Source: Lachnospiraceae bacterium (GTDB taxonomy: Bacteria; Bacillota; Clostridia; Lachnospirales; Lachnospiraceae). Taken from it: a DNA stretch of 64,000 nucleotides. The position numbers were made by a program, and so were the translations under genes. A model generated the notes under the pieces. That model worked only from the letters and a program-made list of their open reading frames with translations. It did not search any database and was not told the DNA's origin. Where the stretch lies: contig JAETTM010000005.1 in the NCBI GenBank assembly GCA_021769135.1, positions 43,164 through 107,163 on the forward strand, given 5' to 3'. Shown piece after piece: positions 20,245 to 64,000 of the stretch (position 1 is its first letter; each line of letters opens with the position of its first letter).

Positions 20245-21261
20245 TTAGGGTAAAAGTTCAACCGTTTCCCGCAGCTGTTCCAGGGTTTTGTGATTATATA
20301 CCCTGTTCCCCACGTCCTTTGACTTATGGCCCATCAGCAGGTCAATGCACTTCCTGTTCCCACCAGCATTGTCAAGGTTCGTTTCAAAAGTGTGCCTTGC
20401 TTCATGGGGCGTTTTATCGGCACCGATTTTTTGCATGACTTCATTCCAGAACGTGTAATATTTTGATTGCGACAGCTTTTTCCCCTGATAGGTAAACAGG
20501 TACGGCCCGCCCTGCTGGATACGATTTTCCACAAAGGGCCATATCCGGGTATGGATGGGTACAATGCGCCCTTTACCTGATGCCGTTTTCACGCCGCCTT
20601 GAAGGTAACGTTCAGCCACGTTCACCTGTTCAAGTTTCATGTTCAGTAGTTCAGTAAGCCGAAAACCGGTATAAATGTAAATCAGCACCGTATCCACCCA
20701 TTCTTGATTGGATATCTTCCATAAAGCGTCTATCTGTTCCGGCGTGAATGGCTCCCTTTTCGTATCCGGGATAGGTGGGGCCGTAGTCAGCTGTGAATAC
20801 ATTTTGTCAATGATATCCAGTTCAAAAGCGAAACGGTCAAGATGCCCAAAGAGGTTCTTAATTGCTGCTTGCGTGGAATAGCTAAGCCCGCAGTTGTCAA
20901 TGCAGTCTTGCATCTGGTACGCTTTAAGGGCACGGTATTTTACGCCATAATATTTTGAACAGTGCTTGTATGCGGCTTTTAGGCATCCTTGAATTGAAGT
21001 TCCTAGTTTGGGGGCCTTTATTTTCAGCCAGCGTTGATATAATGCGGCAAGGGTGACTTTTTCCCGGTCAACCTCCCACGGGTTATCGTTGTACTGTGCC
21101 AACAGGATTAAGGCTTCCGCTTTCGTAAACGCGTAAGCCACGGGAACCTGTCTGGCATGCCCTTCCTGGTCATATAGGGTGACCTTGACCACATAAGGGC
21201 GTGAACGTTTCCCTGATAGTTTGGTTACGCATCCGTAACCGTTTGGATTCCGTCTCGGCAT
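20245..21261 (-). CDS. int: Phage tyrosine integrase
   Basis: A 338-residue site-specific recombinase. The catalytic residues are all present: R201 in YTGFRLTEL, K230 in SGKGRIVP, H286 and R289 in PHEARHTF, H312 in MGHKSKD and the nucleophile Y322 in RVYNHKTL. An N-terminal arm-type DNA-binding part (residues 1-60) precedes a core-binding domain (about 66-165). Its stop lies 3 bp from candidate attL and it faces that end, the normal arrangement. Its Shine-Dalgarno lies inside one of three related repeats (21268-21343), which suggests feedback control. It integrates and excises the prophage. Confidence 0.95.
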   Translation of the reverse strand: MPRRNPNGYGCVTKLSGKRSRPYVVKVTLYDQEGHARQVPVAYAFTKAEALILLAQYNDNPWEVDREKVTLAALYQRWLKIKAPKLGTSIQGCLKAAYKHCSKYYGVKYRALKAYQMQDCIDNCGLSYSTQAAIKNLFGHLDRFAFELDIIDKMYSQLTTAPPIPDTKREPFTPEQIDALWKISNQEWVDTVLIYIYTGFRLTELLNMKLEQVNVAERYLQGGVKTASGKGRIVPIHTRIWPFVENRIQQGGPYLFTYQGKKLSQSKYYTFWNEVMQKIGADKTPHEARHTFETNLDNAGGNRKCIDLLMGHKSKDVGNRVYNHKTLEQLRETVELLP

Positions 21262-24094: not shown

Positions 24095-25165
24095 ATGGCA
24101 GAAAATTGTTTAGAACGGATGGAGCGGATTGACGGAAAGCGAAAAATTGCGGACTTTATTGTGAAACAGAAACAGGATTACGGCTTTAAAGTCCATTATG
24201 CCGCTATCCGGGCAAGGGAATTTGTGGAAGGGTGTGGCACAAGGGGGCTGGGCTATCACGTATCAGTTGGGGGGCTTGATTCCATTACTTTATTCTTATT
24301 TTTGAAGTCTATCGGAATTTATGCGCCGGGGATAAGTGTTTCATATCTTGAAGATGCAAGTATCCAGAAAATCCATAAACAGCTTGGAATCGAATGCTTG
24401 AAATCGGCGATAAAACCAGATGGAACGCACTGGAACAAAGCGCAGATTATTCAGGAGTTTGGATTTCCTGTTTTATCAAAAGAAATTGCTGGAAAAATAG
24501 AAACACTTGCTAATCCAACAGACAAAAACAAAACAGTGAGGCATGCCATTGTCACCGGGGAAACGGGAGCATATGGGGGATTCCAAAAAAACAGCAGAAT
24601 GAAGATGCCGCAGAAGTGGCTTGAAAAATTTGGCGGTTATGCGAATGAAGAAGAAAAGACTGAATATCAGATACCGGATTTTAAGGTTTCTTCAAAATGC
24701 TGCTATTACCTGAAAGAAAAACCGTGCGATGATTGGGCAAAAGAAAACAACAGTGTTCCATTTTTAGGCCTTATGGCTTCGGAAGGCGGCAGGAGGGCAA
24801 AAAGTCTGATGATTAACGGATGTAATTATTTTGGGAAATCAACTATCCGTTCAGCTCCGTTTGCAATTTTTAATAGACAAGATTTGTTGCAGCTTGCGCT
24901 TGATTTGAATGTTCCAGTACCGGAGATATACGGAACTATTGAAAGAAAAAAGGATGGAACACTCTACACAACAAAGGCCCAAAGGACTGGATGTAGTATG
25001 TGCGGTTTTGGGATTCACCTTGAAAAACGTCCGCACAGATTTGACCAGTTAAAAGAAAGAAACCCTAAAGAATGGCATTTTTGGATGTATGAATGTTGCA
25101 CTGATGAAAATGGTGAAAAATATGGTTGGGCAAAAGTTCTTGATTACATAGGCATTGGGTATTGA
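24095..25165 (+). CDS. PAPS reductase-like PP-loop protein of phage type
   Basis: A 356-residue protein. Residues about 52-62 read HVSVGGLDSIT, an SGGxDS-type PP-loop that binds and pyrophosphorylates with ATP. After about 90 residues comes HAIVTGETGAYGG, and later KCCYYLKEKPCDDW with paired cysteines. GCSMCGFGIH near residue 309 may help bind a metal or iron-sulfur cluster. Such proteins are common in phages and related to CysH and DndC, but no dnd or ssp genes are nearby, so phosphorothioation cannot be claimed. GAGAGGTG precedes the ATG. Confidence 0.75.
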   Translation: MAENCLERMERIDGKRKIADFIVKQKQDYGFKVHYAAIRAREFVEGCGTRGLGYHVSVGGLDSITLFLFLKSIGIYAPGISVSYLEDASIQKIHKQLGIECLKSAIKPDGTHWNKAQIIQEFGFPVLSKEIAGKIETLANPTDKNKTVRHAIVTGETGAYGGFQKNSRMKMPQKWLEKFGGYANEEEKTEYQIPDFKVSSKCCYYLKEKPCDDWAKENNSVPFLGLMASEGGRRAKSLMINGCNYFGKSTIRSAPFAIFNRQDLLQLALDLNVPVPEIYGTIERKKDGTLYTTKAQRTGCSMCGFGIHLEKRPHRFDQLKERNPKEWHFWMYECCTDENGEKYGWAKVLDYIGIGY

Positions 25166-51942: not shown

Positions 51943-51997
51943 ATCAGGTAGAGCCATTATGAGCCGATGATTTCTGATCATGAAAGGGGTGGGAACA

Positions 51998-54900
51998 TTG
52001 GCGAATGACGGCACTCTGAAATTTGACACCCTGATAGACTCAAAAGGTTTCCAGAAGGGGATAGATTCTATCGGGGGTATCGCGCAGAAGGGCATGCAGG
52101 CCACGTCTGCAATCCTCACAGGCGCGACAACAGCCATTGTGGGACTTGGCACGGCGGCTGCAAAGGTAGGCGTTGACTTTGAAGCGGCAATGTCGAACGT
52201 GGAAGCCATTTCAGGGGCATCGGGGAAAGAACTGGAAGCCCTTACTGAAAAGGCAAAGGAAATGGGCGCGGCAACAAAGTTCTCCGCAAAGGAATCCGCA
52301 AATGCCTTTGAGTATATGGCAATGGCGGGGTGGAAGACGGAGGACATGCTGGGCGGCATCGAAGGCATCATGAACCTGGCGGCAGCTTCGGGGGAGGACC
52401 TGGCGGCAACGTCCGATATTGTGACGGATGCCCTTACGGCTTTTGGCATGTCGGCGAAGGATTCAACGCACTTTGCAGACGTGCTTGCAAAGGCATCATC
52501 AAACGCCAATACAAATGTGGGCATGATGGGGGAGACGTTCAAGTATGTTGCCCCTGTAGCTGGAACGTTGGGCTTTTCCGCAGAAGATACGGCCATAGCA
52601 ATCGGCCTGATGGCGAATGCGGGGATTAAAGGCTCACAGGCCGGTACAGCATTGCGGGGAACGCTGACCAGGCTGGCCAAGCCGACCAAGGACATGCAGG
52701 CCATCATGGATGAATTCGGGATATCCCTGTTCAATTCGGACGGGTCCGCGAAGTCGCTTATGGAGGTCATGAAGTACCTCCGTCAGGAAATCGGGGGTTG
52801 CGATGAATCCGTGCAGTCTTATGTTGCATCCACCCTTTTCGGACAGGAGGCCATGTCCGGCATGCTGGCTATCATCAACGCATCGGAGGACGACTTTAGC
52901 AGCCTGGCCAAATCCATATACAACTGTGACGGGGCTGCCATAAAGATGGCGGAAACCATGAGCAATAACCTGCAGGGGCAGATTACCATACTGAAATCCG
53001 GGTTGGAAGGGCTTGGGATTTCATTGTATGAGAATATGAAGACCCCCTGCATGGAGATTGTGAAAGAGGCACAGGCCATGGTGCAGGAGCTTCAGTATGC
53101 CTTCAATGACGGCGGCCTGGACAGCCTGGTAACTACGTTTGGCAGCATCCTCTCCCGGATTGTGGAGGGCGTGGCCAATGCGGCGCCGGATTTGATAGAG
53201 GCAGCAGCGGGGCTTGTAGGCTCATTCTGCGAATCGCTGAAAAGCAGCCCGTCAATAGGGGATGCGGCATCCAGCCTGATAACTTCTTTGGTTACCGGGC
53301 TTTTTTCATGCGCGGATGATATCTGGACTACGGCGATTGTCCTGGCAGGAAAAATGGCTGACGGCCTGGCAGAAGGGGCACCGCAAATGGCGCAGGCAGC
53401 TGCCCGTTGCATAGCGGATATCATAGAATGCATAGATGAATGGGCCCCGGATTTCATTGATGCCGGGAAGCGTATCATCCAGGGGATAATCCAGGGAATC
53501 GGGGAAGAGTTCCCATCACTGGGCGCTTTTTTAAGCGGCGTGTTTGAAGGGTTCACCACTACCCTGGAACAACCGGTATTGGAGGGTATTGTCGGCATAG
53601 TTGAGGGCATATTTGATGCCTTGGGCAATGCCGACCCGGCCACCATGGAGGCTTTGGGTAAAGCGGTAGGCACTATAGCTGCAGCTATGGTTACGATGCA
53701 CATGGCCAAAACAGCTGCATCAAACATCAAAGGGGTAGTAACCGCGCTAGGCTCCATGGCAGGCGGAATAAAGGCCGCAGCGGGGGCAATCCCGAAGCTG
53801 GTGGAGGGTTTCCAGCTGCTGGCAGGGGGCGTGGGCACTTTTTCGGAAGTCCTGGCACTTGAATTCCCTAAACTGGCCGGGAACATATCAAAGATAGGCT
53901 CCGCACTTTCTACCGTAAAAACGGTAGTTGCCAGCATAGGCCCTGCCGTGGCAGGGATAGCATCGGTGATAGGCGGCGCGGTTCTGGCGGTAACGAACTT
54001 CTTTGACATGCTCCAAAACGGCTTCAGCTGGCTGAAAGAAGCGTTGATGGTAGCTGGCATTGCCATAGCGGCCATAGGGGCAGTCATCTTGGGGGCACCG
54101 GCCCTGATTGCCGGCGTAATAGCGGCAATTGTGGCGGCAGTCGCCACCCTGATAGTGGTCATAAAGGAGCACTGGGAGCAGATAGCCAGCTTTTTTGTCA
54201 GCATAGGCACCGCAATAGCCGAGTTTTTCCAGTCCATACCGGGCACTGTGAAGGGCCTGGTGGACCAGGTTGTGCTATTTTTTGCTGAATTGCCAGGGCG
54301 CATCGGCACATGGTTGGACAGTGCAGTCAGCACCGCAATAAACTGGGGAAGCCAAATGCTGTCCGTTGCGGTTGGGGCGGCAAAAAGCGTTATTGACAGC
54401 GTATCAACCTTCTTCGCCGAACTGCCGAACAAAATAGCCTATTGGCTGGGCTTTGCACTGGGCAAGGCTATCCAATGGGGGATTGACCTGGCAAACTGGG
54501 TTACTACGGAAGTTCCAAACATTATCGCAAGCATTGTCACGTTCTTTGCAGAACTGCCCGGGAAAATCTGGACATGGCTGGTCAATACGGTAAACAGGGT
54601 CATCCAATGGGGGATTAACCTTCATAATACTGCGTCCACGTGGGTAACGAATACAATAAACGCGGTTGTGAAATTCTTCTCCGAACTGCCCGGGAAAGTC
54701 TGGACGTGGCTGGTAAGTACTGTAAACAAAGTCACACAGTGGGGTAAAAACCTGCTGGCATCCGCCAGCTCCGCAGCACAGAACGCCATTAATAAGGTGG
54801 TGGAGTGGTTCCAGCAGTTGCCTGGGAAAATCTGGACGTGGCTAGTCAATACGGTTGCGAAAGTAACCCAGTTTGCGGCGGACCTGAAAGCGAAGGCAGC

Positions 54901-55450
54901 CGAAGCGGCGCAGGGGTTTGTCTCCAAGCTGGTGGACGGGGTGAAGGGCCTGCCGGACAAATTCAGGGAAATAGGGTCCAATATCGTATCCGGAATCTGG
55001 AACGGCATCTCATCCGGCTGGGATTGGCTGGTCAACAAGGTCAAGGGGCTGGCGGACAGCCTCTTCCAGGGCGCAAAAGATGCGCTGGGAATCAATTCCC
55101 CGTCAAAGGTCTTTGCGCAGGAAGTCGGGCAGTGGATACCGCCTGGCATCGGCGTAGGCATGGAAAAGGCCATGCCGGATTTGCAGAGGCTGGTTGATTC
55201 TGAAATGGAGGAACTGGCCGGGCGGATGCAGGCGGCAGTAGCAATAGAGACCGGAGGGATTACGGTCCGTACCAGGGCAAAGGCAGAGCACAGCGCCGAT
55301 ACGGAATACCCGAATGGGGGCGGCGACACGTACATAGATAACCATATAGAACAGGAGAACAACTACCATACGGACGTGGTGACGAAAAGCGAAGTAAGCA
55401 GGGCACAGCGGGAAGCCGCAAGGAACCTGTTAGGAGGTGTGAAAAAATAG
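51998..55450 (+). CDS. Tail tape measure protein
   Basis: A 1150-residue protein. I chose TTG 51998 (ANDGTLKFDTLIDSKGFQKG) after AAAGGGGTGGG; ATG 51980 has no site. Residues about 40-330 are the TP901 tape-measure core (DFEAAMSNVEAISGASGKEL, EYMAMAGWKTEDMLGGIEGI). The middle has hydrophobic helices (AIAAIGAVILGAPALIAGVI) that may insert into the host membrane. Residues about 750-980 hold five or more repeats of about 37 residues centred on FFAELPGKIWTWLVNTVN. The C-terminus (NSPSKVFAQEVGQWIPPGIG) is family-typical. It sets tail length and helps DNA entry. Confidence 0.92.
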   Translation: MANDGTLKFDTLIDSKGFQKGIDSIGGIAQKGMQATSAILTGATTAIVGLGTAAAKVGVDFEAAMSNVEAISGASGKELEALTEKAKEMGAATKFSAKESANAFEYMAMAGWKTEDMLGGIEGIMNLAAASGEDLAATSDIVTDALTAFGMSAKDSTHFADVLAKASSNANTNVGMMGETFKYVAPVAGTLGFSAEDTAIAIGLMANAGIKGSQAGTALRGTLTRLAKPTKDMQAIMDEFGISLFNSDGSAKSLMEVMKYLRQEIGGCDESVQSYVASTLFGQEAMSGMLAIINASEDDFSSLAKSIYNCDGAAIKMAETMSNNLQGQITILKSGLEGLGISLYENMKTPCMEIVKEAQAMVQELQYAFNDGGLDSLVTTFGSILSRIVEGVANAAPDLIEAAAGLVGSFCESLKSSPSIGDAASSLITSLVTGLFSCADDIWTTAIVLAGKMADGLAEGAPQMAQAAARCIADIIECIDEWAPDFIDAGKRIIQGIIQGIGEEFPSLGAFLSGVFEGFTTTLEQPVLEGIVGIVEGIFDALGNADPATMEALGKAVGTIAAAMVTMHMAKTAASNIKGVVTALGSMAGGIKAAAGAIPKLVEGFQLLAGGVGTFSEVLALEFPKLAGNISKIGSALSTVKTVVASIGPAVAGIASVIGGAVLAVTNFFDMLQNGFSWLKEALMVAGIAIAAIGAVILGAPALIAGVIAAIVAAVATLIVVIKEHWEQIASFFVSIGTAIAEFFQSIPGTVKGLVDQVVLFFAELPGRIGTWLDSAVSTAINWGSQMLSVAVGAAKSVIDSVSTFFAELPNKIAYWLGFALGKAIQWGIDLANWVTTEVPNIIASIVTFFAELPGKIWTWLVNTVNRVIQWGINLHNTASTWVTNTINAVVKFFSELPGKVWTWLVSTVNKVTQWGKNLLASASSAAQNAINKVVEWFQQLPGKIWTWLVNTVAKVTQFAADLKAKAAEAAQGFVSKLVDGVKGLPDKFREIGSNIVSGIWNGISSGWDWLVNKVKGLADSLFQGAKDALGINSPSKVFAQEVGQWIPPGIGVGMEKAMPDLQRLVDSEMEELAGRMQAAVAIETGGITVRTRAKAEHSADTEYPNGGGDTYIDNHIEQENNYHTDVVTKSEVSRAQREAARNLLGGVKK

Positions 55451-56370
55451 TGGCGAACTTTATAGATTTGGCGTTGGAATGCAATGGGGTATGCATGCAG
55501 TTCGGCATGTCGGAATCCGGGAGGAAAAGGGAGTTCGGGATTACAAAGGTCGAAGGCCTGGAAGCATCGGAGCTGGAAGTCAGTACCACGGACAATGCCC
55601 TGGTAGACGGGTCAACCGTGGACGGGAAAAGGATAAAGGAGCGTATTATACATATTGAGGCGACATTACGCGATGACAGGAACAATGAGACGAACCGGCA
55701 GCGCATTATCAAGTTCTTCAACCCGAAGTATACAGGGAAGCTGACGGTTAACTACGGCGGGGTAAAGAGGAATATCGGGTATGAGCTGGAGGGGTGGAAT
55801 TTCGTGGCCGGGAGCAACGTGTACAATCAGCTGGCAATTGTGGCCGACCTGAAATGCCCTGACCCATTCATGAAAAACATTGACAATTTTGGGCAGAACA
55901 TGGCAAACATCAGCAGGCATATCGCTTTCCCTTGGAGGGTAGTGGCCCGGAAAGTAACGGTACCGGCCCCCTATAAAGGCCTGGCCCTCCCGGGGCAGAT
56001 TACCGGGTACAGGACGCTGAAAAAGGAAGTGCACCTACCAAATGACGGGGATGTGCCGACCGGCGTACAGATTCAATTCATCGCAGCCAGGGGCCCGGTC
56101 CGAAACCCGAAGATAACGATACTGGGGGAAGTGCAGCATTTCATGAGGGTGGCCATCGACATGGCGGAGGGGGATATCCTGCTGGTGGACACGGATGAAA
56201 GGCACCAAGTCATAGAACTGAACGGGGTAAACGTATACCAGAAGATAGACCGGAGGTCGGAGCCGTTTGAAATCCAGGTGGGCAGCAACTACCTGGAATA
56301 TGACGCGGATGAGAACTATACAAACCTGGACGTAAAGCTTTTTTATACGCCCAAATACCTGGGGGTATAA
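55450..56370 (+). CDS. Distal tail protein (Dit)
   Basis: A 306-residue baseplate hub protein started at GTG 55450, overlapping the tape measure stop. Typical Dit features are seen: NTD strand pattern with VDGSTVDGKRIKERIIHIEA, DRNNETNRQRIIKFFNPKYT, KLTVNYGGVKRNIGYELEGW and CPDPFMKN. The C-terminal galectin-like part covers about residues 190-306. It joins the tail tube to the tip proteins. Confidence 0.87.
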   Translation: MANFIDLALECNGVCMQFGMSESGRKREFGITKVEGLEASELEVSTTDNALVDGSTVDGKRIKERIIHIEATLRDDRNNETNRQRIIKFFNPKYTGKLTVNYGGVKRNIGYELEGWNFVAGSNVYNQLAIVADLKCPDPFMKNIDNFGQNMANISRHIAFPWRVVARKVTVPAPYKGLALPGQITGYRTLKKEVHLPNDGDVPTGVQIQFIAARGPVRNPKITILGEVQHFMRVAIDMAEGDILLVDTDERHQVIELNGVNVYQKIDRRSEPFEIQVGSNYLEYDADENYTNLDVKLFYTPKYLGV

Positions 56371-56384
56371 CGGAGGGGATGACA

Positions 56385-57479
56385 ATGAGGCTTATTGTGC
56401 TGGACAGCAATTTTGACACTATCGGGGGCGTGCCCCTGTTCTCCACACTTATCTGGGTACGGAGGTACGAAAAGCTGGGCTATTTTGAACTGTATACATC
56501 TAAGGACTATTTCAGCCTGCTGGATTCCGGGCGTTACCTGTACCGCAATGACGCCGATGCGCTGGGCGTGATTGATGAGGTCAACTATGCACAGGACAAG
56601 AAGGGGAACAAGGAGGCCTATGCGAAAGGGAACTTTGCGGAAGCCTTGCTTACAGACAGGGTAATCTCATCAACGGCAGTAATGAAAGGGAACGTGGAAA
56701 CGTCCATGAGGTGGCTTGTCAACAGGGAAGCCATTAGCCCGTCTGATGCCGACCGTGCCATCCAGAGGCTGGTTTTAGGGGATGTATCCGGGATAGCGGG
56801 GGAGCTGGACATGCAGGCAACGGGGGATAACTTAAGCGAAAAGCTGTATGACATAGGGAACACACGCGGCATCAGCCACCGGGTACGCTATGACTACCTA
56901 AAGAACAGGCTCTTGTTTGAAGTATGGCAGGGCAAAGACCGGCGTGACAGCCAGACGGCAAACAGCTGGGCAATATTCTCCAATTCCTTCTGCAATATAA
57001 AAGATGTAGTCTACAGCCGCAACGGCAGCTCGTATAAAAACTTTGCCTATGTGGCCGGCGCTGGGGAGGGCGCGGAACGGGTTGTTGTAACTGTTGACCT
57101 AAGGCAGCCCGGTGAGGAAAGGAAAGAAATCTGGGTGGATGCCCGCGACATACAGCAGGAGGACAGCGACGGCAATGCTATCCCCCTGGACATATATAGG
57201 GCGCAGCTTGCCCAACGTGGCATGGAAAAGCTTGCAGAATACAGGAAGGTGGAAACCATAAACAGCAGTATTGACCCAAAGGCCAATCTGGTATACAAGA
57301 AAGACTTTGACCTGGGCGACTACTGCACGTACGTAAATACGGAGGTTATGATTTCCGCTGATAAACGTATTACGGAAGTGATGGAAACATATGAGGGCGG
57401 GGCAATGGGATTGGAAGTGACATTCGGCACGGGCGAGGTATCAACGGTGCAACAGATGATAAAGAGGGAGGTGAAATAG
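56385..57479 (+). CDS. Tail-tip protein (siphovirus ReqiPepy6 Gp37-like)
   Basis: A 364-residue protein. ATG 56385 has GGAGGGG 6 nt upstream; ATG 56379 abuts it. STLIWVRRYEKLGYFELYTS, YLYRNDADALGVIDEVNYAQ and EVMETYEGGAMGLEVTFGTG fit the Gp37-like family that forms the tail-tip hub (the Tal/gp27-like fold). It stands between Dit and the upper baseplate protein as expected. No peptidase or lysozyme domain is fused. Confidence 0.8.
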   Translation: MRLIVLDSNFDTIGGVPLFSTLIWVRRYEKLGYFELYTSKDYFSLLDSGRYLYRNDADALGVIDEVNYAQDKKGNKEAYAKGNFAEALLTDRVISSTAVMKGNVETSMRWLVNREAISPSDADRAIQRLVLGDVSGIAGELDMQATGDNLSEKLYDIGNTRGISHRVRYDYLKNRLLFEVWQGKDRRDSQTANSWAIFSNSFCNIKDVVYSRNGSSYKNFAYVAGAGEGAERVVVTVDLRQPGEERKEIWVDARDIQQEDSDGNAIPLDIYRAQLAQRGMEKLAEYRKVETINSSIDPKANLVYKKDFDLGDYCTYVNTEVMISADKRITEVMETYEGGAMGLEVTFGTGEVSTVQQMIKREVK

Positions 57480-57484
57480 GGGTG

Positions 57485-58528
57485 ATGAGGTACGGCTTTT
57501 TTGATAGTGAGATTATAGGGTATGATGAGGAGGGCATGCCGATTTTTGACCGGGCGGAGTCTTCCGATTTCCTGGCGATGTTTATTTCAAGGATTATAAG
57601 CGATGGCGTGCTGGGCCAGCCCGGGAATTGCTTCCAGGTTACTGCATACACCGGAATGAAGGTAAAAGTGAAGCCTGGCTTTGGCATTGTCAGGGGGAGG
57701 TTTGCGGAGGATGTGGAAGAGGCTGAAATTGAAGTTCCGGCCGCACCGGCTGGGTACAGGCGCATTGACAGGGTAATCCTAAGGGCAAACTACCTGGAGA
57801 GGGTGTGCGAAATTATATTAAGGGAAGGCGTGGCCGGGGCACGGCCGGTCCCCCCGGAACTGGTACGCCCTGAATCCGGGGATTATTACGAACTATGCCT
57901 TGCGAATATCAGCATCGCGGCTGGCCAGGAATCGGTGGCGCAGGCAGATATCACGGATACAAGGTATGACAGCAGGGTGTGTGGTGTGGTCACGCAGGTA
58001 ATAGACCACTTGGACACGTCCGTATTTTTTGCGCAGCTTGACAGCTTTTATACGGAGTTTGTTGCAAAGTCTAATACAAGCTATGCGGAATTCCTCCGGA
58101 TGGCCCAGGAGGCCTATGATACAATCAGCGCTAACATGGAAAGCTATTATGCAGGATTGATGGCGCAGGGGAAAGCGCTACACGATGAATACAAGGCGGA
58201 CATTTCCGGATACATAGCGGCGCTGAAAAGCAAAGGGGATGCAGACTTGGCAGAAATCACGCAGGAGCTGCTAGACTTTAAAAATGCGAACGAAGCTGCA
58301 TTTTTAGCATGGTTTGAAGCCATCAAGGGCTTGCTGGGGCAGTATGAGGCAGGGGAGCTGATAACAATAATCAATGCTTTGGTTTCACGCCTGGATGACA
58401 TGGAAGAGATGATTTTTACGGGCATGGCATCGGCAAAACTCATCATCGATGATGAAGGTAATTATCTGGCAACGGAAGCCGGGGTGGCAATCTTGGCCGA
58501 CTGGCGGATATGCCAGTGTGGATGTTGA
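57485..58528 (+). CDS. Baseplate/tail-fibre base protein
   Basis: A 347-residue protein. N-terminal FFDSEIIGYDEEGMPIFDRA leads into a jelly-roll-like domain (NCFQVTAYTGMKVKVKPGFG, GYRRIDRVILRANYLERVCE, residues about 35-150), usual in phage baseplate upper proteins. Then a long helical coiled coil (residues about 175-310) suggests a trimeric stalk. The C-terminus ends ILADWRICQCGC. It likely docks the variable fibre two genes downstream. Confidence 0.72.
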   Translation: MRYGFFDSEIIGYDEEGMPIFDRAESSDFLAMFISRIISDGVLGQPGNCFQVTAYTGMKVKVKPGFGIVRGRFAEDVEEAEIEVPAAPAGYRRIDRVILRANYLERVCEIILREGVAGARPVPPELVRPESGDYYELCLANISIAAGQESVAQADITDTRYDSRVCGVVTQVIDHLDTSVFFAQLDSFYTEFVAKSNTSYAEFLRMAQEAYDTISANMESYYAGLMAQGKALHDEYKADISGYIAALKSKGDADLAEITQELLDFKNANEAAFLAWFEAIKGLLGQYEAGELITIINALVSRLDDMEEMIFTGMASAKLIIDDEGNYLATEAGVAILADWRICQCGC

Positions 58529-58556
58529 GTATAAAGGGAAGGAGGATTTTTAGGAA

Positions 58557-58796
58557 ATGAATCAAGGGATACCTATTCAGCAGCTGACGGAGGCGTCAGC
58601 GATTCCGGCAGGAAGTATGTTTCTAGTGCGGATGGGAGACGGCACGGGAACAAAAAGAGTGAAAAAGGAAGTGCTATTGGAACAGATGGAAACGGACATG
58701 ACAATGGGCTATGAGGATACGCTGGCTTTCCTGGATGCGGAAGAAGATACGGGGGGAGAAAGTGGAACCGAAAACAATGAAAGCGGGGTGGAATAA
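58557..58796 (+). CDS. Small protein upstream of the variable fibre
   Basis: A 79-residue acidic protein (IPIQQLTEASAIPAGSMFLV, RMGDGTGTKRVKKEVLLEQM, Glu/Gly/Asn-rich tail). AAGGAGG precedes the ATG. The N-terminal part looks like the short adhesive modules found at the start of phage fibre proteins (SIPxGAxFLVxxxxGT). Its stop directly abuts the fibre ATG, so it may be a fibre connector. Confidence 0.6.
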   Translation: MNQGIPIQQLTEASAIPAGSMFLVRMGDGTGTKRVKKEVLLEQMETDMTMGYEDTLAFLDAEEDTGGESGTENNESGVE

Positions 58797-59306
58797 ATGG
58801 GATTATTAGACCCGAAAGCACTAAGGGATTGGATTAAGTCGCGTGCGGTAAATAATTTGATGGCTACAGCAAAGGGGTTCTTTTTGGATGCACGCTTGGG
58901 TCCAGCGATACAGGGTAAGATTGATGAAGTGAAGACGGAAGTTGAAGAGATAAACGGCAATTTAGGGTATCTGTTTGCACCCCTCAAACAAATAACAGGA
59001 GCTTTTACTCCAACGGCTCCTGGTATTTCGGAAGCTATGTGGAGTTATACTGCTACAAAAGATACTATTGTAATGTTATATGCAACAGTTGGCAATCAAA
59101 ATCCAAATGATATTTTTTCACTCGCCATCAATGCTAAAGGGTATCAGTTACAAGTTTCGCAGGATACCGTTGATCCTGGTGGCGGATGGAAATATTTAAA
59201 TAGTAGTGCTGTCATAGGGCTTCGCGCAGGAGAAACTATAAATGTTGGGCTATTATCAGTTAACCGTGGACAGCTCCAATACAGTATTATCACTAATATA
59301 AGTTAA
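58797..59306 (+). CDS. Tail fibre protein with recombination-swappable C-terminus (expressed version A)
   Basis: A 169-residue protein. Residues 1-56 are constant: a helical stalk (LLDPKALRDWIKSRAVNNLM, ARLGPAIQGKIDEVKTEVEE) ending in EINGNL, which is encoded by site 1. Residues 57-169 are the variable tip A, strand-rich (TKDTIVMLYATVGNQNPNDI, INVGLLSVNRGQLQYSIITN), with more AT-rich DNA than the stalk. Three other tips stored downstream begin with the same EINGNL in frame. It is probably the receptor-binding fibre tip. Lengths after switching would be 139 (B), 145 (C) and 160 (D) residues. Confidence 0.75.
   Translation: MGLLDPKALRDWIKSRAVNNLMATAKGFFLDARLGPAIQGKIDEVKTEVEEINGNLGYLFAPLKQITGAFTPTAPGISEAMWSYTATKDTIVMLYATVGNQNPNDIFSLAINAKGYQLQVSQDTVDPGGGWKYLNSSAVIGLRAGETINVGLLSVNRGQLQYSIITNIS
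58947..58967 (+). repeat. Inversion site 1 (at the constant/variable junction)
   Basis: GAGATAAACGGCAATTTA plus GGG, encoding EINGNLG in the fibre frame. Direct orientation. It shares 21 bp with site 2. The core contains TAAA-N6-TTTA, a short dyad such as tyrosine recombinases use. Confidence 0.85.
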
Positions 59307-59340
59307 TTTCCTTCATATAGCATTTGTAATAAAAAAAATT

Positions 59341-59592
59341 TTACTGGACTTTTATAAGCCCAGCAAGTGCAACCCAATGCGTGCCATTTGCGGGTGTACT
59401 AATCATGTATCCATTTATTTGTATTTTGCCATTTGCAGCACTTGCAAGTCCATTAAAATCGGGAATCCAGATACCCCATACAGCCAACGATGTTGCCAAT
59501 ACGGTTTTTCCAGGTATATCTACAATCCCGATGCCATTGACAAATTCAAGGTTAAAGCTGTTGCTGTATGGCATCCAGCCACTTAGGTTCCC
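59341..59592 (-). other. Silent fibre C-terminal cassette B (promoterless, no start)
   Basis: Read on the minus strand from site 2, the frame continues EINGNL with 83 residues (GNLSGWMPYSNSFNLEFVNG ... NGTHWVALAGLIKVQ) and a stop at 59341. There is no ribosome binding site. It faces tip A tail-to-tail with 34 bp between the stops. One inversion between sites 1 and 2 (664 bp) would fuse it to the fibre stalk. It is Gly/Ile-rich and predicted to be a beta-rich receptor-binding domain. Confidence 0.75.
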
Positions 59593-59610
59593 TAAATTGC
59601 CGTTTATCTC
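59590..59610 (-). repeat. Inversion site 2 (inverted)
   Basis: The complement reads GAGATAAACGGCAATTTA plus GGG, identical over 21 bp to site 1 and in opposite orientation. It opens cassette B in frame. Confidence 0.85.
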
Positions 59611-59637
59611 ACTATCTGCTTAGTACCCCTAAGCTGG

Positions 59638-59643
59638 TATAAT
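59638..59643 (+). promoter_or_regulatory. Extended -10 promoter of the recombinase gene
   Basis: TGGTATAAT, an extended -10 element, lies 22 bp before the recombinase start; no clear -35 is seen. It is inside the region bounded by sites 1 and 4, so an outer inversion would turn it together with the gene. Confidence 0.5.
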
Positions 59644-59664
59644 GGGATAAAAAACGGGAGGTAT

Positions 59665-60654
59665 ATGCGGATGGTATCACAGGTTGTAGACAAGGTTTTA
59701 CAAGCGATGATGGGAAAAGGCATGGATGAACTGAAAAGTGTCCTATATTGCGTGCTTGCAGGATATGATATCACAAAAAAGAGCACAGAACTACAGAAAA
59801 TAGAAAGAGGCTGGGAGGAAGAATTATGTGCCTTTCTGGTGAGAAAGCGGGTAGAGGGCCGGTCTGATGGCACAATTAGCCAATATAGCCTTCACCTTAG
59901 GCGGATGTTGCAATACATAAACAAGCCCGTCAAAGAAATCAGCGATGCAGATTTGTTTTCCTATATTGCGGTGTACAAGAAAAAGAGGAACGTATCAAGT
60001 GTTTACCTGAACAATATCCGGCTGGTATGCAGTTCCTTCTTTAGCTGGCTAAATAATAAAGGGTATATAAATAAGAACCCGGCAGCAGGGCTTGACCCTA
60101 TAAAGACGGAGAAAAGGATTAAAAAGCCACTGTCAGATACGGAATTAGAGATTTTACGCAGAAAATGCAGAATTGAAAGGGATATTGCCCTCATAGAATG
60201 CTTGTACAGCACCGGTGTCAGAGTATCGGAACTGGTGTCGCTTAATAAATCGGACATTGATTTTGAGAACATGAAGGCAATTGTGTACGGGAAAGGAGCA
60301 AAAGAGCGGGAAACATACCTGACAGCTGCAGCCTGTATGCACCTTAAGGAGTACATTGATTCCAGGGAGGATAGTAGTGATGCACTTTTTGTCAGTTTAA
60401 GGGCCCCACACACCCGGCTTACAGTTTCCGGCGTGGAAGAAATACTACGGAAGTTGGGTAGGCGTACGGGGATAAATAAAGTGCATCCGCACCGTTTCCG
60501 GAGAACGATGGCCACAAACATCTTGAATAAGGGGATGCCAATTGAAGAAGTAAAAGAAATCTTGGGGCATGTAAAATTAGATACAACGCTGATTTATTGT
60601 CAGGTGAACAAAGAAAACGTGCGGCATAACCATAAAAAATACATGTCCGCATAA
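59665..60654 (+). CDS. Tyrosine recombinase of the fibre shufflon
   Basis: A 329-residue recombinase of the XerC/D-integrase fold. The full catalytic set is present: R186 in YSTGVRVSEL, K210 in YGKGAKERE, H276 and R279 in HPHRFRRTMAT, H302 in ILGHVKLDT and the nucleophile Y311 in TLIYCQV. A SAM-like core-binding domain (about 52-140) precedes it, with an extra 50-residue N-terminal helix. GGGAGG is 3 nt before ATG 59665; ATG 59671 is better spaced. It lies between sites 2 and 3, like rci beside the R64 shufflon, and is the obvious inversion enzyme. It is unrelated in detail to the prophage integrase. Confidence 0.9.
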   Translation: MRMVSQVVDKVLQAMMGKGMDELKSVLYCVLAGYDITKKSTELQKIERGWEEELCAFLVRKRVEGRSDGTISQYSLHLRRMLQYINKPVKEISDADLFSYIAVYKKKRNVSSVYLNNIRLVCSSFFSWLNNKGYINKNPAAGLDPIKTEKRIKKPLSDTELEILRRKCRIERDIALIECLYSTGVRVSELVSLNKSDIDFENMKAIVYGKGAKERETYLTAAACMHLKEYIDSREDSSDALFVSLRAPHTRLTVSGVEEILRKLGRRTGINKVHPHRFRRTMATNILNKGMPIEEVKEILGHVKLDTTLIYCQVNKENVRHNHKKYMSA

Positions 60655-60669
60655 AATATGTTGCTGTGT

Positions 60670-60695
60670 AGGCCTGCTACATGGCAGGCCTGTTT
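60670..60695 (+). terminator. Terminator of the recombinase gene
   Basis: The perfect eight-base stem AGGCCTGC/GCAGGCCT is followed by GTTTTG, 15 bp after the stop. It keeps recombinase transcription from entering cassette C. Confidence 0.75.
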
Positions 60696-60767
60696 TGCGT
60701 GGAAAAATACGGGAAAGGGGGCGATGGACCTATGGATGGGGATGGAAGATTGAAAAAATAAAATAAA

Positions 60768-60785
60768 GAGATAAACGGCAATTTA
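60768..60785 (+). repeat. Inversion site 3 (direct)
   Basis: GAGATAAACGGCAATTTA followed by GTA; the same orientation as site 1. It opens cassette C in frame. Upstream DNA is A-rich and does not encode the fibre stalk. Confidence 0.85.
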
Positions 60786-61055
60786 GTAAATCGCGACAAA
60801 GGAACTTATTACATCACAGCACAATTTACAAAAGATGTGCAGTATAGCAACTATTATGTAGCGATATACAATCTGCAAACACATAATGTTCCGGCAAAAG
60901 TAACAATTTTGGCAGTTACTGCAATCGGTCGCGTTTCATTTCCGGTAGACGATTTTGAAATAAGCCTTACTGACGCTCCTGGTTCAATCGTAATTAAGAC
61001 TACAAACCCCGCGGTGGCTGGTTTTTGGTGCGTTTTTCGGGTAGTGATAAATTAA
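60786..61055 (+). other. Silent fibre C-terminal cassette C
   Basis: From site 3 the frame gives 89 residues (VNRDKGTYYITAQFTKDVQY ... AVAGFWCVFRVVIN) and a stop at 61053-61055. There is no promoter, start or ribosome binding site. It is in the same orientation as the fibre, so two inversions (sites 3-4, then 1-4) would be needed to express it. Its stop overlaps that of cassette D in TTAA. Confidence 0.72.
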
Positions 61056-61366
61056 TTGTAGCAATATGAGCCCGTAAAAAACATCAAATCACATGAGCCG
61101 TCTCCAAGACTGCCATAGTACTTAATGCTGCCATCGGTATCAATAACCAGCTGCGCCATAAAAAGTTGATTATTCCGTTGCGCTATACCATATAAGGATT
61201 TTCGTGCTTTAGGTGCATATCGCATATTAATATTGTAAATCAAAGTATTTGTTGCAAAAGGAACATCACTATGCATTCCGCAAGTTATATTCACCGTTTT
61301 AGCACTGGGATTGCATGTGATACAACCGCTGCCCTGTCCACAAAAATTAGGCTCCAATACAATACT
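61052..61366 (-). other. Silent fibre C-terminal cassette D
   Basis: Read on the minus strand from site 4, the frame gives 104 residues (SIVLEPNFCGQGSGCITCNP ... DLMFFTGSYCYN) with six cysteines, unlike the other tips. It faces cassette C and shares its stop region (TTAA). One inversion between sites 1 and 4 would fuse it to the stalk and flip the recombinase gene. Confidence 0.72.
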
Positions 61367-61384
61367 TAAATTGCCGTTTATCTC
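61367..61384 (-). repeat. Inversion site 4 (inverted, outer boundary)
   Basis: The complement reads GAGATAAACGGCAATTTA. The similarity to site 1 extends outward over AAGTTGA, suggesting that sites 1 and 4 are the original outer pair. No repeat is found beyond it. Confidence 0.82.
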
Positions 61385-61445
61385 ATCAACTTGCTAAAAA
61401 AGGCCTTGTCGGGCTTTATTTTTATGAAGAAAGGAAGAAAAGAAC

Positions 61446-61856
61446 ATGGACAAAGACAAATTAGTATTAAAAGATGGCACCAAAATAACCCTTGAAACCG
61501 GGGCAAGCCTGGGGAGCCTTACGGTTATATCAGATAACAAGTCAACAATGCTAGGCACGTGGGAAAAACTGACAAAAGATAACCTGGCAGAAGTATGCAT
61601 CCAGAACAGTGCAGGCCTGGCAGTGGGGAGGTACAAGGACTTGGTGCTTATTTCCGAAACTTCCATTGTGCAGCAGGACGGCACAGTACATACAACCTTC
61701 CGATTAAAGGAGAAAGACGCATTGGAAAAACGTATGGATGCGGTAGAAGCCGGGCAGGAAATACAAGATGAGACGATAGCAAGCCTGGCAGATGAACTAA
61801 CTGATACACAGCTTGGGCTTGCAGAAGCCTATGAACTGGCAGGGGGTGGAATCTGA
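61446..61856 (+). CDS. Hypothetical tail-region protein before the lysis genes
   Basis: A 136-residue protein. The N-terminal half is strand-rich (KLVLKDGTKITLETGASLGS, LTVISDNKSTMLGTWEKLTK); the C-terminal half is a coiled coil (EKRMDAVEAGQEIQDETIAS). It has AGAAAGGAAG upstream and overlaps the next gene by one base. Proteins of this layout lie between fibre and holin genes in related prophages and are probably fibre-associated or assembly factors. Confidence 0.62.
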   Translation: MDKDKLVLKDGTKITLETGASLGSLTVISDNKSTMLGTWEKLTKDNLAEVCIQNSAGLAVGRYKDLVLISETSIVQQDGTVHTTFRLKEKDALEKRMDAVEAGQEIQDETIASLADELTDTQLGLAEAYELAGGGI

Positions 61857-61972
61857 TGGGCATGGCAAAAGTATATGCGGATTTAATCCGGAAGGGGAAA
61901 AAGGTGCTAGATGATGTGCCACAAAAATTACAGAAGGAAGTCAAGGCGCTTTTAGCAGGGGGTAGAAAATGA
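61856..61972 (+). CDS. CD1375-like small protein, copy 1
   Basis: A 38-residue peptide (MGMAKVYADLIRKGKKVLDD, then VPQKLQKEVKALLAGGRK). It matches the short (A)KVYADLI-KGKK-DVP pattern that precedes holin genes in many clostridial phages. The start overlaps the previous stop. It is paralogous to the next gene. Function unknown. Confidence 0.65.
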   Translation: MGMAKVYADLIRKGKKVLDDVPQKLQKEVKALLAGGRK

Positions 61973-62022
61973 TTCTGTTAAAAGCCCTTCTTTATTTTAT
62001 ATCGGGAAAGGGGGTGTACGAT

Positions 62023-62151
62023 ATGGCAATTGTGTATGCGCTGCTGATTATCAAAGGAAAAAAAGTTTTTGCAGACGTACCGGCAAAGCTGAAAGACCAG
62101 GTCAAGGAAGTTCTGATTGACATGGAAGTGCCTGAACTGGCCGCAGATTAA
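62023..62151 (+). CDS. CD1375-like small protein, copy 2
   Basis: A 42-residue peptide (MAIVYALLIIKGKKVFADVP, then AKLKDQVKEVLIDMEVPELA). GGGAAAGGGGG lies 8 nt before ATG 62023. An upstream ATG at 61969 would add 18 residues and overlaps the copy 1 stop. It shares the VYA-LI-KGKK-DVP-KL pattern with copy 1, so a tandem duplication. Confidence 0.65.
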   Translation: MAIVYALLIIKGKKVFADVPAKLKDQVKEVLIDMEVPELAAD

Positions 62152-62190
62152 TTTTTTCAACCACATGGACAAATTATCAAAGACATACGT

Positions 62191-62235
62191 AAAAGCACCT
62201 ATATGACGTTATATAAGAGTCAAACGGGTGCTTTT
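62191..62235 (+). terminator. Terminator before the holin gene
   Basis: AAAAGCACC pairs with GGTGCTTTT around an inner TATA-TGACGT-TATA stem, followed by TTTTTCG. It lies just before the holin ribosome binding site, so it could attenuate lysis gene expression. Confidence 0.65.
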
Positions 62236-62260
62236 TCGTGTGCAGAAAGGATGGAAAGAC

Positions 62261-62689
62261 ATGAAAATGAAACTTTTAACTTTTATCGGCGTAGTGGGAA
62301 GCTGGATTGCTTCCCTGTTCGGAGGCTGGGATGCCGCACTGACCACCCTGATTATGTTCATGGCCGTGGACTATTTCACCGGCTTAATTGTTGCGGGCGT
62401 GTTCCACAAGTCAGAAAAGACACAGAATGGTACACTGGAAAGCCGTGCCGGTTGGAAAGGCCTTTGCAGGAAAGGTGTAACGTTGCTTATTGTGCTTGTG
62501 GCGTGCCGACTGGATTTGGTCATGGGCTCTAATTTCATCAGGGATGCGGTAGTAATAGCCTTTATAGCAAACGAGACCATTTCTATCATTGAAAATGCCG
62601 GCTTAATGGGTGTACCTATTCCGGCAGTTATCACAAGGGCAATAGAGGTGCTGAAAGAGAAGTCGGAAGGTGGTGATGGGGATGAGTAG
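62261..62689 (+). CDS. Phage holin, toxin secretion/lysis family
   Basis: A 142-residue membrane protein starting MKMKLLTFIGVVGSWIASLF. It has about three hydrophobic spans (residues 5-22, 28-50 with MFMAVDYFTGLIVAGVF, 70-92 with GVTLLIVLVACRLDLVMG). The motif DYFTGL and later AFIANETISIIENAGLMGVP are typical of holin family 4/TIGR01593. It opens the membrane for the endolysin at lysis. GAAAGGA precedes the start; the endolysin gene overlaps its end. Confidence 0.9.
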   Translation: MKMKLLTFIGVVGSWIASLFGGWDAALTTLIMFMAVDYFTGLIVAGVFHKSEKTQNGTLESRAGWKGLCRKGVTLLIVLVACRLDLVMGSNFIRDAVVIAFIANETISIIENAGLMGVPIPAVITRAIEVLKEKSEGGDGDE

Positions 62690-63695
62690 GGAAATGCTTT
62701 ATGAAGGGCCCGATATATCCTATCACAATGGCAATGTCAACATTAAAAAGGTCCGGGATGCGGGATGCAAGCGTGTAGGAATCCGTGCAGGGTATGGCAG
62801 GAACAATGTTGACCAGAAATATATAGTAAATGCCTTGGCTTGCTACAACCTGGGTGTGGATGTTATGCTGTACTGGTTTTCTTATGCCTATTCTACAGCC
62901 ATGGCAGCAACTGAAGCGGATTATGCTATAGGGCAGGCAGCAAAGTATTGGAAGCAATGCCCAATCGCATTTGATTTTGAATATGACAGCGTTAATTATG
63001 GCCGGAAAAATGGAGTGAATATTACAAAGCAATTGGCTACGGATATGGCGATTGCCTTTCTCAAACGCATTCAGGAAAAGGGGTACGTTCCTGTCCTGTA
63101 TACAAACCGCGATTATTTAAGGAATTATTTTGACATGGGCAGGATTGCTGCAGAACTTGGGGTAGTATATGTCTGGTATGCAAGGTATACATCATCCCTC
63201 CCGGCTACCGAAGAGGATGCGGCGGACATTTGGCAATATACATCTACCGGGAAAATCCCAGGGGCATCCGGCAATGTAGACATGAACCGTTTCTACACTA
63301 ATTTTCTTGGCCAGGATACAGTGAAAACTGACAGGGAGGAAAAATGCAATTTGAACATCCGTGGATTCCAGCAGGCGGCAAATGCGGATGGATACAGGGA
63401 TGCAGATGGGAATGAATTAGCAGAGGATGGAATTGACGGGGAAAGGACACAATATGTACGCAGCCTGATAACGCTGGCAGGAAAGAGCAATGGGGAATAT
63501 ACAGTAGGTTCGTCCGGCAATGTAGTCAAATGGTGGCAGGGGAGATGCAATGAAATCTTAGGGCACAGCCAGGTAGTGGATGGGCTGTATGGAAAAGCTT
63601 CCCGTAAAGAAACCACTGCCGTACAGGAAAAATTGAACTTGACGGTTGACGGGATTGCCGGGAGGAACAGCATACAAGCAGCATTTTATAATTAG
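62676..63695 (+). CDS. Endolysin, GH25 lysozyme with C-terminal peptidoglycan-binding repeats
   Basis: A 339-residue muramidase. The GH25 catalytic domain covers residues about 5-200: EGPDISYHNGNVNIKKVRDA with catalytic Asp, VGIRAGYG, and PIAFDFEYDS with the DxE acid. It ends near DIWQYTSTGKIPG. The C-terminal part has a PG-binding-like module (GNVVKWWQGRCNEILGHSQV, LNLTVDGIAGRNSIQAAFYN). There is no signal peptide, so export is through the holin. ATG 62676 lies 5 nt after GGAAGG; ATG 62682 is possible. Confidence 0.92.
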   Translation: MGMSREMLYEGPDISYHNGNVNIKKVRDAGCKRVGIRAGYGRNNVDQKYIVNALACYNLGVDVMLYWFSYAYSTAMAATEADYAIGQAAKYWKQCPIAFDFEYDSVNYGRKNGVNITKQLATDMAIAFLKRIQEKGYVPVLYTNRDYLRNYFDMGRIAAELGVVYVWYARYTSSLPATEEDAADIWQYTSTGKIPGASGNVDMNRFYTNFLGQDTVKTDREEKCNLNIRGFQQAANADGYRDADGNELAEDGIDGERTQYVRSLITLAGKSNGEYTVGSSGNVVKWWQGRCNEILGHSQVVDGLYGKASRKETTAVQEKLNLTVDGIAGRNSIQAAFYN

Positions 63696-63720
63696 TTTAT
63701 GTGGCTGGGCAAGATAAAAT

Positions 63721-63740
63721 TTGTTTCTAATTTGTTACTA
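63721..63740. repeat. Candidate attR (20-bp direct repeat)
   Basis: TTGTTTCTAATTTGTTACTA, identical to the copy at 20223-20242, 25 bp after the endolysin stop. Host DNA resumes after it. Confidence 0.85.
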
Positions 63741-63815
63741 ATTGAGGGTATTTGACGGGTTCTTAGAGGGATTAAACTGTTAAACTTTTCCCATAAATAC
63801 AGTATTTACGCGATA

Positions 63816-63844
63816 TTGTAATGAACGCTGTTTTGTGTTATGAT
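63816..63844 (+). promoter_or_regulatory. Candidate host promoter downstream of attR
   Basis: TTGTAA, a 17-bp spacer and TATGAT (63839-63844) point to the right, toward a gene beyond the window. The rest of 63741-64000 is AT-rich; an 18-codon frame at 63931-63987 after AAAGGAC is the only other signal and is not convincing as a gene. Confidence 0.5.
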
Positions 63845-64000
63845 AAATTTGTATAGTTTTAAACGGTTTGACAGTTGTGGAGAAATAAGTTTGAAACAAA
63901 TAAGTAGAAGACAACCAAGAAATAAAGGACATGGCAAATAGACCATCTTCCGGTGGTTTAAAAATCAAATATAGACACAACACCTAATCAGGTAACTGGA

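Follow-up and report, generated by a model that had tools for sequence, protein, structure and literature searches.

A probable tail-fibre shufflon with an internal tyrosine recombinase in a Lachnospiraceae prophage

Positions 58797–61384 of a 64,000-nucleotide stretch of DNA from a Lachnospiraceae bacterium (contig JAETTM010000005.1; the whole stretch is hereafter the window) are best explained as a tail-fibre shufflon, to which we assign a probability of about 0.92. Herein, a gene encoding a stalk plus a tip is accompanied by three stalkless tips, four identical sites of alternating orientation and a tyrosine recombinase. Judged from the sequence, this tail-tip shufflon is real and probably active, and it is a Firmicutes variant in which the recombinase lies inside the array. 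A preliminary description had proposed a multiple-inversion system acting on a tail tip, and this proposal is supported by stalk/tip exchange in database proteins, by a site-bounded inversion in related loci and by the recurrence of the layout together with the recombinase family.

Sites, reading frames and recombinase of the array

Four exact copies of the 18-mer GAGATAAACGGCAATTTA were found in the order +, −, +, −, as first reported, except that the second copy starts at 59593 and not at 59590 (Table 1). A scan of the 4.43-Mb genome with up to two mismatches gave these four copies only, and none for the reversed pattern used as a control; the arithmetic expectation of extra exact copies in the window is about 2e-6. 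Chance repeats are ruled out as the source of the sites by this genome-wide scan. The invariant stretch around the sites comprises 8 bp, a 6-bp spacer (CGGCAA) and 4 bp, and is longer on the stalk side.

One shared frame runs through all four sites and continues EINGNL into 113, 83, 89 and 104 residues (119, 89, 95 and 110 open codons), which confirms that each site opens a different C-terminus of 83–113 residues. Site 1 sits within a 169-codon open reading frame (ORF), in which a started open frame extends 50 codons ahead of the site, so that the stalk measures 56 residues including EINGNL. At sites 2, 3 and 4 the same frame is stopped 3, 2 and 3 codons upstream, and the stalk is thus joined to the first tip only, as had been proposed. 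The additional claim that the silent tips have no start codon holds only for the stalk-joined form, because ATG, GTG and TTG codons are present inside them. Promoter-like matches in 57400–61700 were not in excess (8, with a shuffle mean of 9.4), and an Rfam search of 57000–64000 gave no match. The four tips share no detectable similarity (pairwise global identity 19–27%, alignment scores ≤0), and they form two tail-to-tail pairs (tips 1/2 and tips 3/4). Their GC content is 38.7–43.3%, with 53.0% in the upstream tail genes and 45.7% in the downstream genes. Silent tip 3 gave no Pfam match above the cut-off.

The tyrosine recombinase inside the array is complete, in agreement with the preliminary description: its ORF is full length, and both domains and the catalytic residues are kept. 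Among 20 aligned family members, R186, K210, H274, R277 and H302 are invariant, and Y311 occurs in at least 90%. The protein scores 246 bits with the NCBIfam XerA model (cut-off 220), and its relatives among solved structures in the PDB include XerA and XerD. Since its Pfam and NCBIfam matches are tyrosine-recombinase models, apart from a few weak unrelated ones, a serine invertase was ruled out. The translation start is probably the ATG at 59671, because 327 amino acids is the length of most of the 120 recombinase homologues listed. This ATG is preceded by GGGAGG at 59656 and TATAAT at 59638, both of which may be functional in recombinase expression. Residues 1–50 (59665–59820) constitute a conserved N-terminal extension with no Pfam match above the cut-off, which in this recombinase family may serve in regulation or directionality. 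At the other end a C-terminal extension is missing: 18 residues follow the catalytic Tyr311 of the 329-residue protein, and XerC/XerA-like alignments reach residue 323–325. The possibility that the shufflon recombinase is the prophage integrase was ruled out, as the prophage carries its own integrase with 20% identity (Table 1).

Exchange of tips and cassettes among relatives

The stalk-joined fibre and silent tip 4 were used as queries of protein databases. The former retrieved 13 proteins, ten with the stalk and three with tip 1 and no stalk. In P0121 the stalk is followed by tip 1, whereas in P0125 a stalk identical at 56 of 56 residues is followed by a homologue of silent tip 2 (83% identity). 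A tip 2 homologue is likewise joined to stalks matching at 50 and 48 of 56 residues in P0128 and P0129, and P0126, P0127, P0130, P0131 and P0132 combine the stalk with other tips, two of which match Gp53-like_C. P0133 diverges from the stalk ahead of the site. The stalkless proteins with tip 1 are P0122 (96%), P0123 and P0124; taken with the P0125-type junctions, they indicate that tip 1, stalk-joined in the window, lacks the stalk in some relatives, and that a tip silent in the window is stalk-joined in others. Silent tip 4 retrieved two proteins, both stalkless: P0134 (86%) and P0135 (93% over 66%, a shorter ORF). Among 397 genomes of the family, the tail-fibre protein was found in none besides its own, so that exchanged forms with this stalk are known from the protein database only.

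Structure models of modest confidence, built on alignments of only 5 and 4 sequences, were considered for two tip types. In the AlphaFold model of the stalk-joined fibre, two helices of low confidence are followed by a beta jelly roll (block pLDDT 68–88). The jelly roll of tip 1 resembles trimeric TNF/C1q-like heads (best PDB E 2.6e-5; TM-score by query length 0.32–0.47 in the 50 matches listed) as well as phage C1q-domain proteins. The head of P0125, which is of the tip 2 type, is also modelled as beta, and the fold matches differ between the two modelled tips. The tips may be receptor-binding heads, in which case a tip swap would change adsorption.

Rearrangements bounded by the sites were found when related loci were compared. 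In two prophages of Hungatella hathewayi DSM 13479 (L031 and L033), the recombinase segment is collinear and 97.5% identical. The next cassette has opposite orientations in the two prophages, with breakpoints inside sites 3 and 4, and its 547 aligned columns contain 5 gap positions and no mismatch; past site 4 the two run in the same direction again at 87.8% identity. Locus L184, in a genome assigned to the same family as that of the window, carries a stretch identical to L031 over 4,002 bp, which makes a host in the Lachnospiraceae, the family of Hungatella, likely. In a second pair, L107 and L108, with recombinase segments 96.9% identical, a shared tip (97.3% over 408 bp) occupies silent site 3 in L107 and the stalk-joined site 1 in L108. 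These comparisons show, at the level of sequence, that the sites are where cassettes change place and orientation among relatives. Furthermore, similar tips were observed twice within one array (sites 1 and 4 of L107, 89% identical; sites 1 and 3 of L017, 69%), and tips therefore also duplicate and diverge.

To test the layout itself, four windows placed about each recombinase were scanned with 14-mers for the order +, −, recombinase, +, −. For the main census, recombinases at least 40% identical to that of the window and at most two mismatches in total were accepted, loci sharing identical recombinase stretches were counted once, and 41 short-flank loci and loci with the recombinase running off the start were left out. 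The layout was found in 19 of 75 loci, and the control, with the three partner windows all flipped, gave 0 of 75. Two partly flipped controls, which retain some true site pairs, gave 4/75 and 3/75 at two mismatches; the controls bear on the site layout, not on the open-frame condition. Below 40% recombinase identity, a single locus of 79 had the layout. An earlier count with narrower windows, duplicates kept and up to four mismatches gave 17/63, with 0/63 in both controls. The site sequences vary between loci, agree within a locus and keep the same geometry around the recombinase, with TAAA-N6-TTTA in at least two of the four copies in 13 of 23 loci. All four frames were open for at least 60 codons in 13 of the 75 loci (up to four mismatches). 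The stalk gene, recognised as the longer upstream open frame, lies on the site-1 side in ten of these 13 and on the site-4 side in three (L099, L173 and L203). The recombinase is also opposed to the fibre gene in L015 (recombinase 79% identical), a locus with baseplate wedge genes. Among relatives the recombinase is thus found in both orientations with respect to the fibre gene, which is the outcome expected if the segment that bears it inverts. Three of the listed loci (L036, L149 and L034) are probably not of this kind.

Recombinase relatives, counted irrespective of layout and with the own genome included, occur in 37 of 195 relatives (E≤1e-30) and in 43 of 397 family genomes (E≤1e-75). A search of the phage collection with the recombinase gave eight distant relatives, and blastn of the locus DNA against the same collection gave no match. 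In Terrisporobacter phage TPELB_ph1 (L222), whose record gives particle-protected DNA as its source, a second tyrosine recombinase, 34% identical and annotated as an integrase, lies between the tail genes and the holin; inspection of this phage for a repeated site set revealed none. The exact 18-mer occurs once each in two IMG/VR contigs (L013 and L014), the first without an array.

Variant loci were also observed. A related version with one long ORF of about 190–240 codons per cassette is present in L175, L176, L210, L213 and L214. The stalk of L213 runs into a 189-codon tip, and the stalk frame of its close relative L176 stops 6 codons past the site, as if these were on and off states. In L138, L151, L154 and L166 the recombinase is at one end and a 13-mer (AAAGAGTCATTTA or AAAGAGCTATTTA) is repeated six times over the two strands, a layout nearer to that of Rin, a shufflon of Bifidobacterium prophages.

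Counter-evidence, alternatives and proposed mechanism

Several observations weigh against the shufflon reading. Site-bounded rearranged forms, namely the L031/L033 inversion and the P0125 junction, were seen between relatives only. The P0125 tip is only 83% identical to silent tip 2, so the exchanged forms belong to related rather than identical phages. Upstream of site 2, L031 and L033 have no match at an 88% cut-off, and L108 has no match to the 500-bp part of the stalk gene that precedes site 1 in L107. Because these upstream parts are unmatched, both pairs are mosaic relatives and not one phage in two states. In addition, the Hungatella recombinases are 42% identical to that of the window. 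In the census, 56 of the 75 loci did not show four sites at up to two mismatches, and looser thresholds raised the control along with the count (23/75 against 2/75 at three mismatches; 27/75 against 5/75 at four). Finally, the model of the tip 2-type head had no PDB match below E 0.001 and no confident fold match.

An improbable alternative is that the shufflon is frozen, its sites and recombinase once functional, and that this copy no longer inverts, the silent tips being relics. Decay of this type has a precedent in L163, a relative of L107 in which the cassette between sites 3 and 4 is gone, a near-palindromic fused site is left and the recombinase is shortened (1400–2520); L163 is possibly a locked derivative. 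A relic would be expected to have lost some of its sites, frames or recombinase, whereas in the window the four sites agree at all 18 bp, no frame is interrupted and the recombinase retains its full length and catalytic residues. Less probable still is that the repeats are a conserved EINGNL linker motif spread by ordinary recombination or gene conversion, with the recombinase nearby by chance: the site is indeed coding in frame and stalk/tip combinations vary among mosaic relatives, but the prophage has its own integrase, the stalkless silent copies are identical even at third codon positions, the sites differ between loci while matching within each around the same recombinase geometry, and the inversion of the Hungatella cassette runs exactly from site to site.

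Under the shufflon reading, the recombinase is predicted to act on the 18-bp sites, with their TAAA/TTTA arms and asymmetric 6-bp spacer. It would invert the DNA between opposed sites and thereby join a different tip to the stalk, presumably in a single lysogen or as the phage grows. The swapped tip would change which cells the phage attaches to, and the host-range switching in one lysogen population put forward in the preliminary description is a prediction of this kind. Enumeration of inversions between opposed sites alone yields 16 arrangements, in which each tip is stalk-joined in four and the recombinase segment is central in all 16. Starting from the assembled order, a single inversion brings tip 2 or tip 4 to the stalk, and tip 3 requires two. 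Both deletions between direct sites (1–3 and 2–4) take out the recombinase; such a deletion would freeze the locus and leave a locked fibre gene. Because an Rci-type C-terminal domain is absent here, we propose that the array layout may itself make deletion self-limiting.

A broader proposal is held more tentatively, at somewhat short of even odds. It states that the locus belongs to a class of prophage tail shufflon that spans the Lachnospiraceae and had gone unreported, with a central recombinase, four strictly alternating sites, 16 states and equal tip shares. In this class, deletions would excise the recombinase, self-limiting and leaving a locked fibre gene, in place of the Rci C-terminal domain, and the module would be common to long flexible and contractile-type tails.

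Prophage setting, known systems and significance

The array lies between tail genes and the lysis genes (Table 1). Together with a regulator, DNA polymerase, helicase/primase, terminase, portal and major head protein found elsewhere in the window, the integrase, replication, head, tape measure, tail, holin and endolysin genes mark a siphovirus-like prophage, as had been suggested. The end of the window is the end of the contig. A phosphoadenosine phosphosulfate reductase-like gene was observed at 24095–25165, in the prophage early region.

Table 1. Features of the array and of the surrounding prophage (window positions)
Feature	Position	Strand	Basis
Separate prophage integrase	20245..21261	−	20% identity to shufflon recombinase over 164 aligned columns
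Upstream tail genes: tape measure, Dit-like, Gp37-like, a structural protein, small ORF	51980..58796	+	Domain and profile matches
Tail-fibre gene with start, 169 aa: 56-residue stalk ending EINGNL plus tip 1 (113 aa)	58797..59306	+	Frames; homologue P0121, 80% over 99%; AlphaFold model
Site 1, stalk/tip junction, core TAAA-CGGCAA-TTTA	58947..58964	+	Exact 18-mer
Silent tip 2, 83 aa past EINGNL, tail to tail with tip 1	59341..59592	−	Homologue on identical stalk in P0125, on similar stalk in P0128 and P0129
Site 2	59593..59610	−	Exact 18-mer
Tyrosine recombinase, 329 aa, core-binding and catalytic domains, between sites 2 and 3	59665..60654	+	PF00589 (catalytic) 1.9e-38; PF13495 (core-binding) 2.4e-10
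Site 3	60768..60785	+	Exact 18-mer
Silent tip 3, 89 aa past EINGNL	60786..61055	+	Open frame
Silent tip 4, 104 aa past EINGNL, tail to tail with tip 3	61052..61366	−	Stalkless homologues P0134 and P0135
Site 4	61367..61384	−	Exact 18-mer
Holin and GH25 endolysin, downstream	62228..63695	+	Domain matches

Set beside the locus by its published description, the Rin shufflon of Bifidobacterium prophages is the closest published system, and R64/Rci is more distant. Both Rin and the present array are found in prophages and employ a tyrosine recombinase distinct from the integrase. Both join a constant N-terminus of a receptor-binding protein, a function that would apply here by inference, to exchangeable C-termini (about 95–100 residues in Rin), and both have short asymmetric sites at each variable cassette and site-bounded inversions between relatives (PMC6109161). 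In contrast, Rin flanks an array of tandemly oriented Rv genes, has an 11-bp rix site and a 168-residue constant part, and resides in Bifidobacterium (PMC6109161), whereas in the present array the recombinase is enclosed by sites 2 and 3, the tips stand tail to tail, the 18-bp sites alternate strictly, the stalk has 56 residues and a Firmicute is the likely host. The rix site TTCCCTAACCC, sought with up to two mismatches, had 21 matches in the window (shuffle mean 26.1), none of them in 58797–61384. A Rin-type locus has also been described in Eggerthella lenta (PMC8778435).

The parallel to R64 PilV and Rci drawn in the preliminary description stands as regards multiple inversion, and fails as regards the closest published counterpart, which is Rin (PMC6109161): the Rci C-terminal domain is absent and the recombinase lies inside the array. 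R64 shares with the window a constant N-terminus, exchangeable C-termini, several inverted sites and a tyrosine recombinase (PMC11852207). It differs in that the product is a plasmid pilus adhesin rather than a phage fibre, and in that rci adjoins an array of seven sfx sites (12-bp left arm, 7-bp core, 12-bp right arm) of which core and right arm are conserved, instead of the 8 bp, spacer and 4 bp found here (PMC11852207). The inversion-only action of Rci has been ascribed to its additional C-terminal domain and to asymmetric arms (PMC11852207); with Tyr311 of 329 residues and no such domain here, membership in the Rci group was rejected. The Min, Gin and Cin systems of coliphages p15B, Mu and P1 also switch tail fibres via inversion in a phage, but use serine recombinases, unlike the tyrosine recombinase (PF00589) here (PMC6109161). 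Furthermore, prophage inversions around tail fibres have been reported in four species of Proteobacteria (PMC5903667). Within the literature covered, tail-fibre switching by a phage tyrosine recombinase is described only for Bifidobacterium and Eggerthella prophages (PMC6109161; PMC8778435). No description of such a system in Firmicutes prophages was found in the open-licence PMC literature, and a report elsewhere may exist.

Altogether, a related layout is now seen in several Lachnospiraceae genomes, and multi-receptor prophages in dominant gut Firmicutes become directly testable. In addition, the question has been raised of how armless recombinases keep from deleting the array (PMC6109161), and the central recombinase provides a concrete, testable answer to it.

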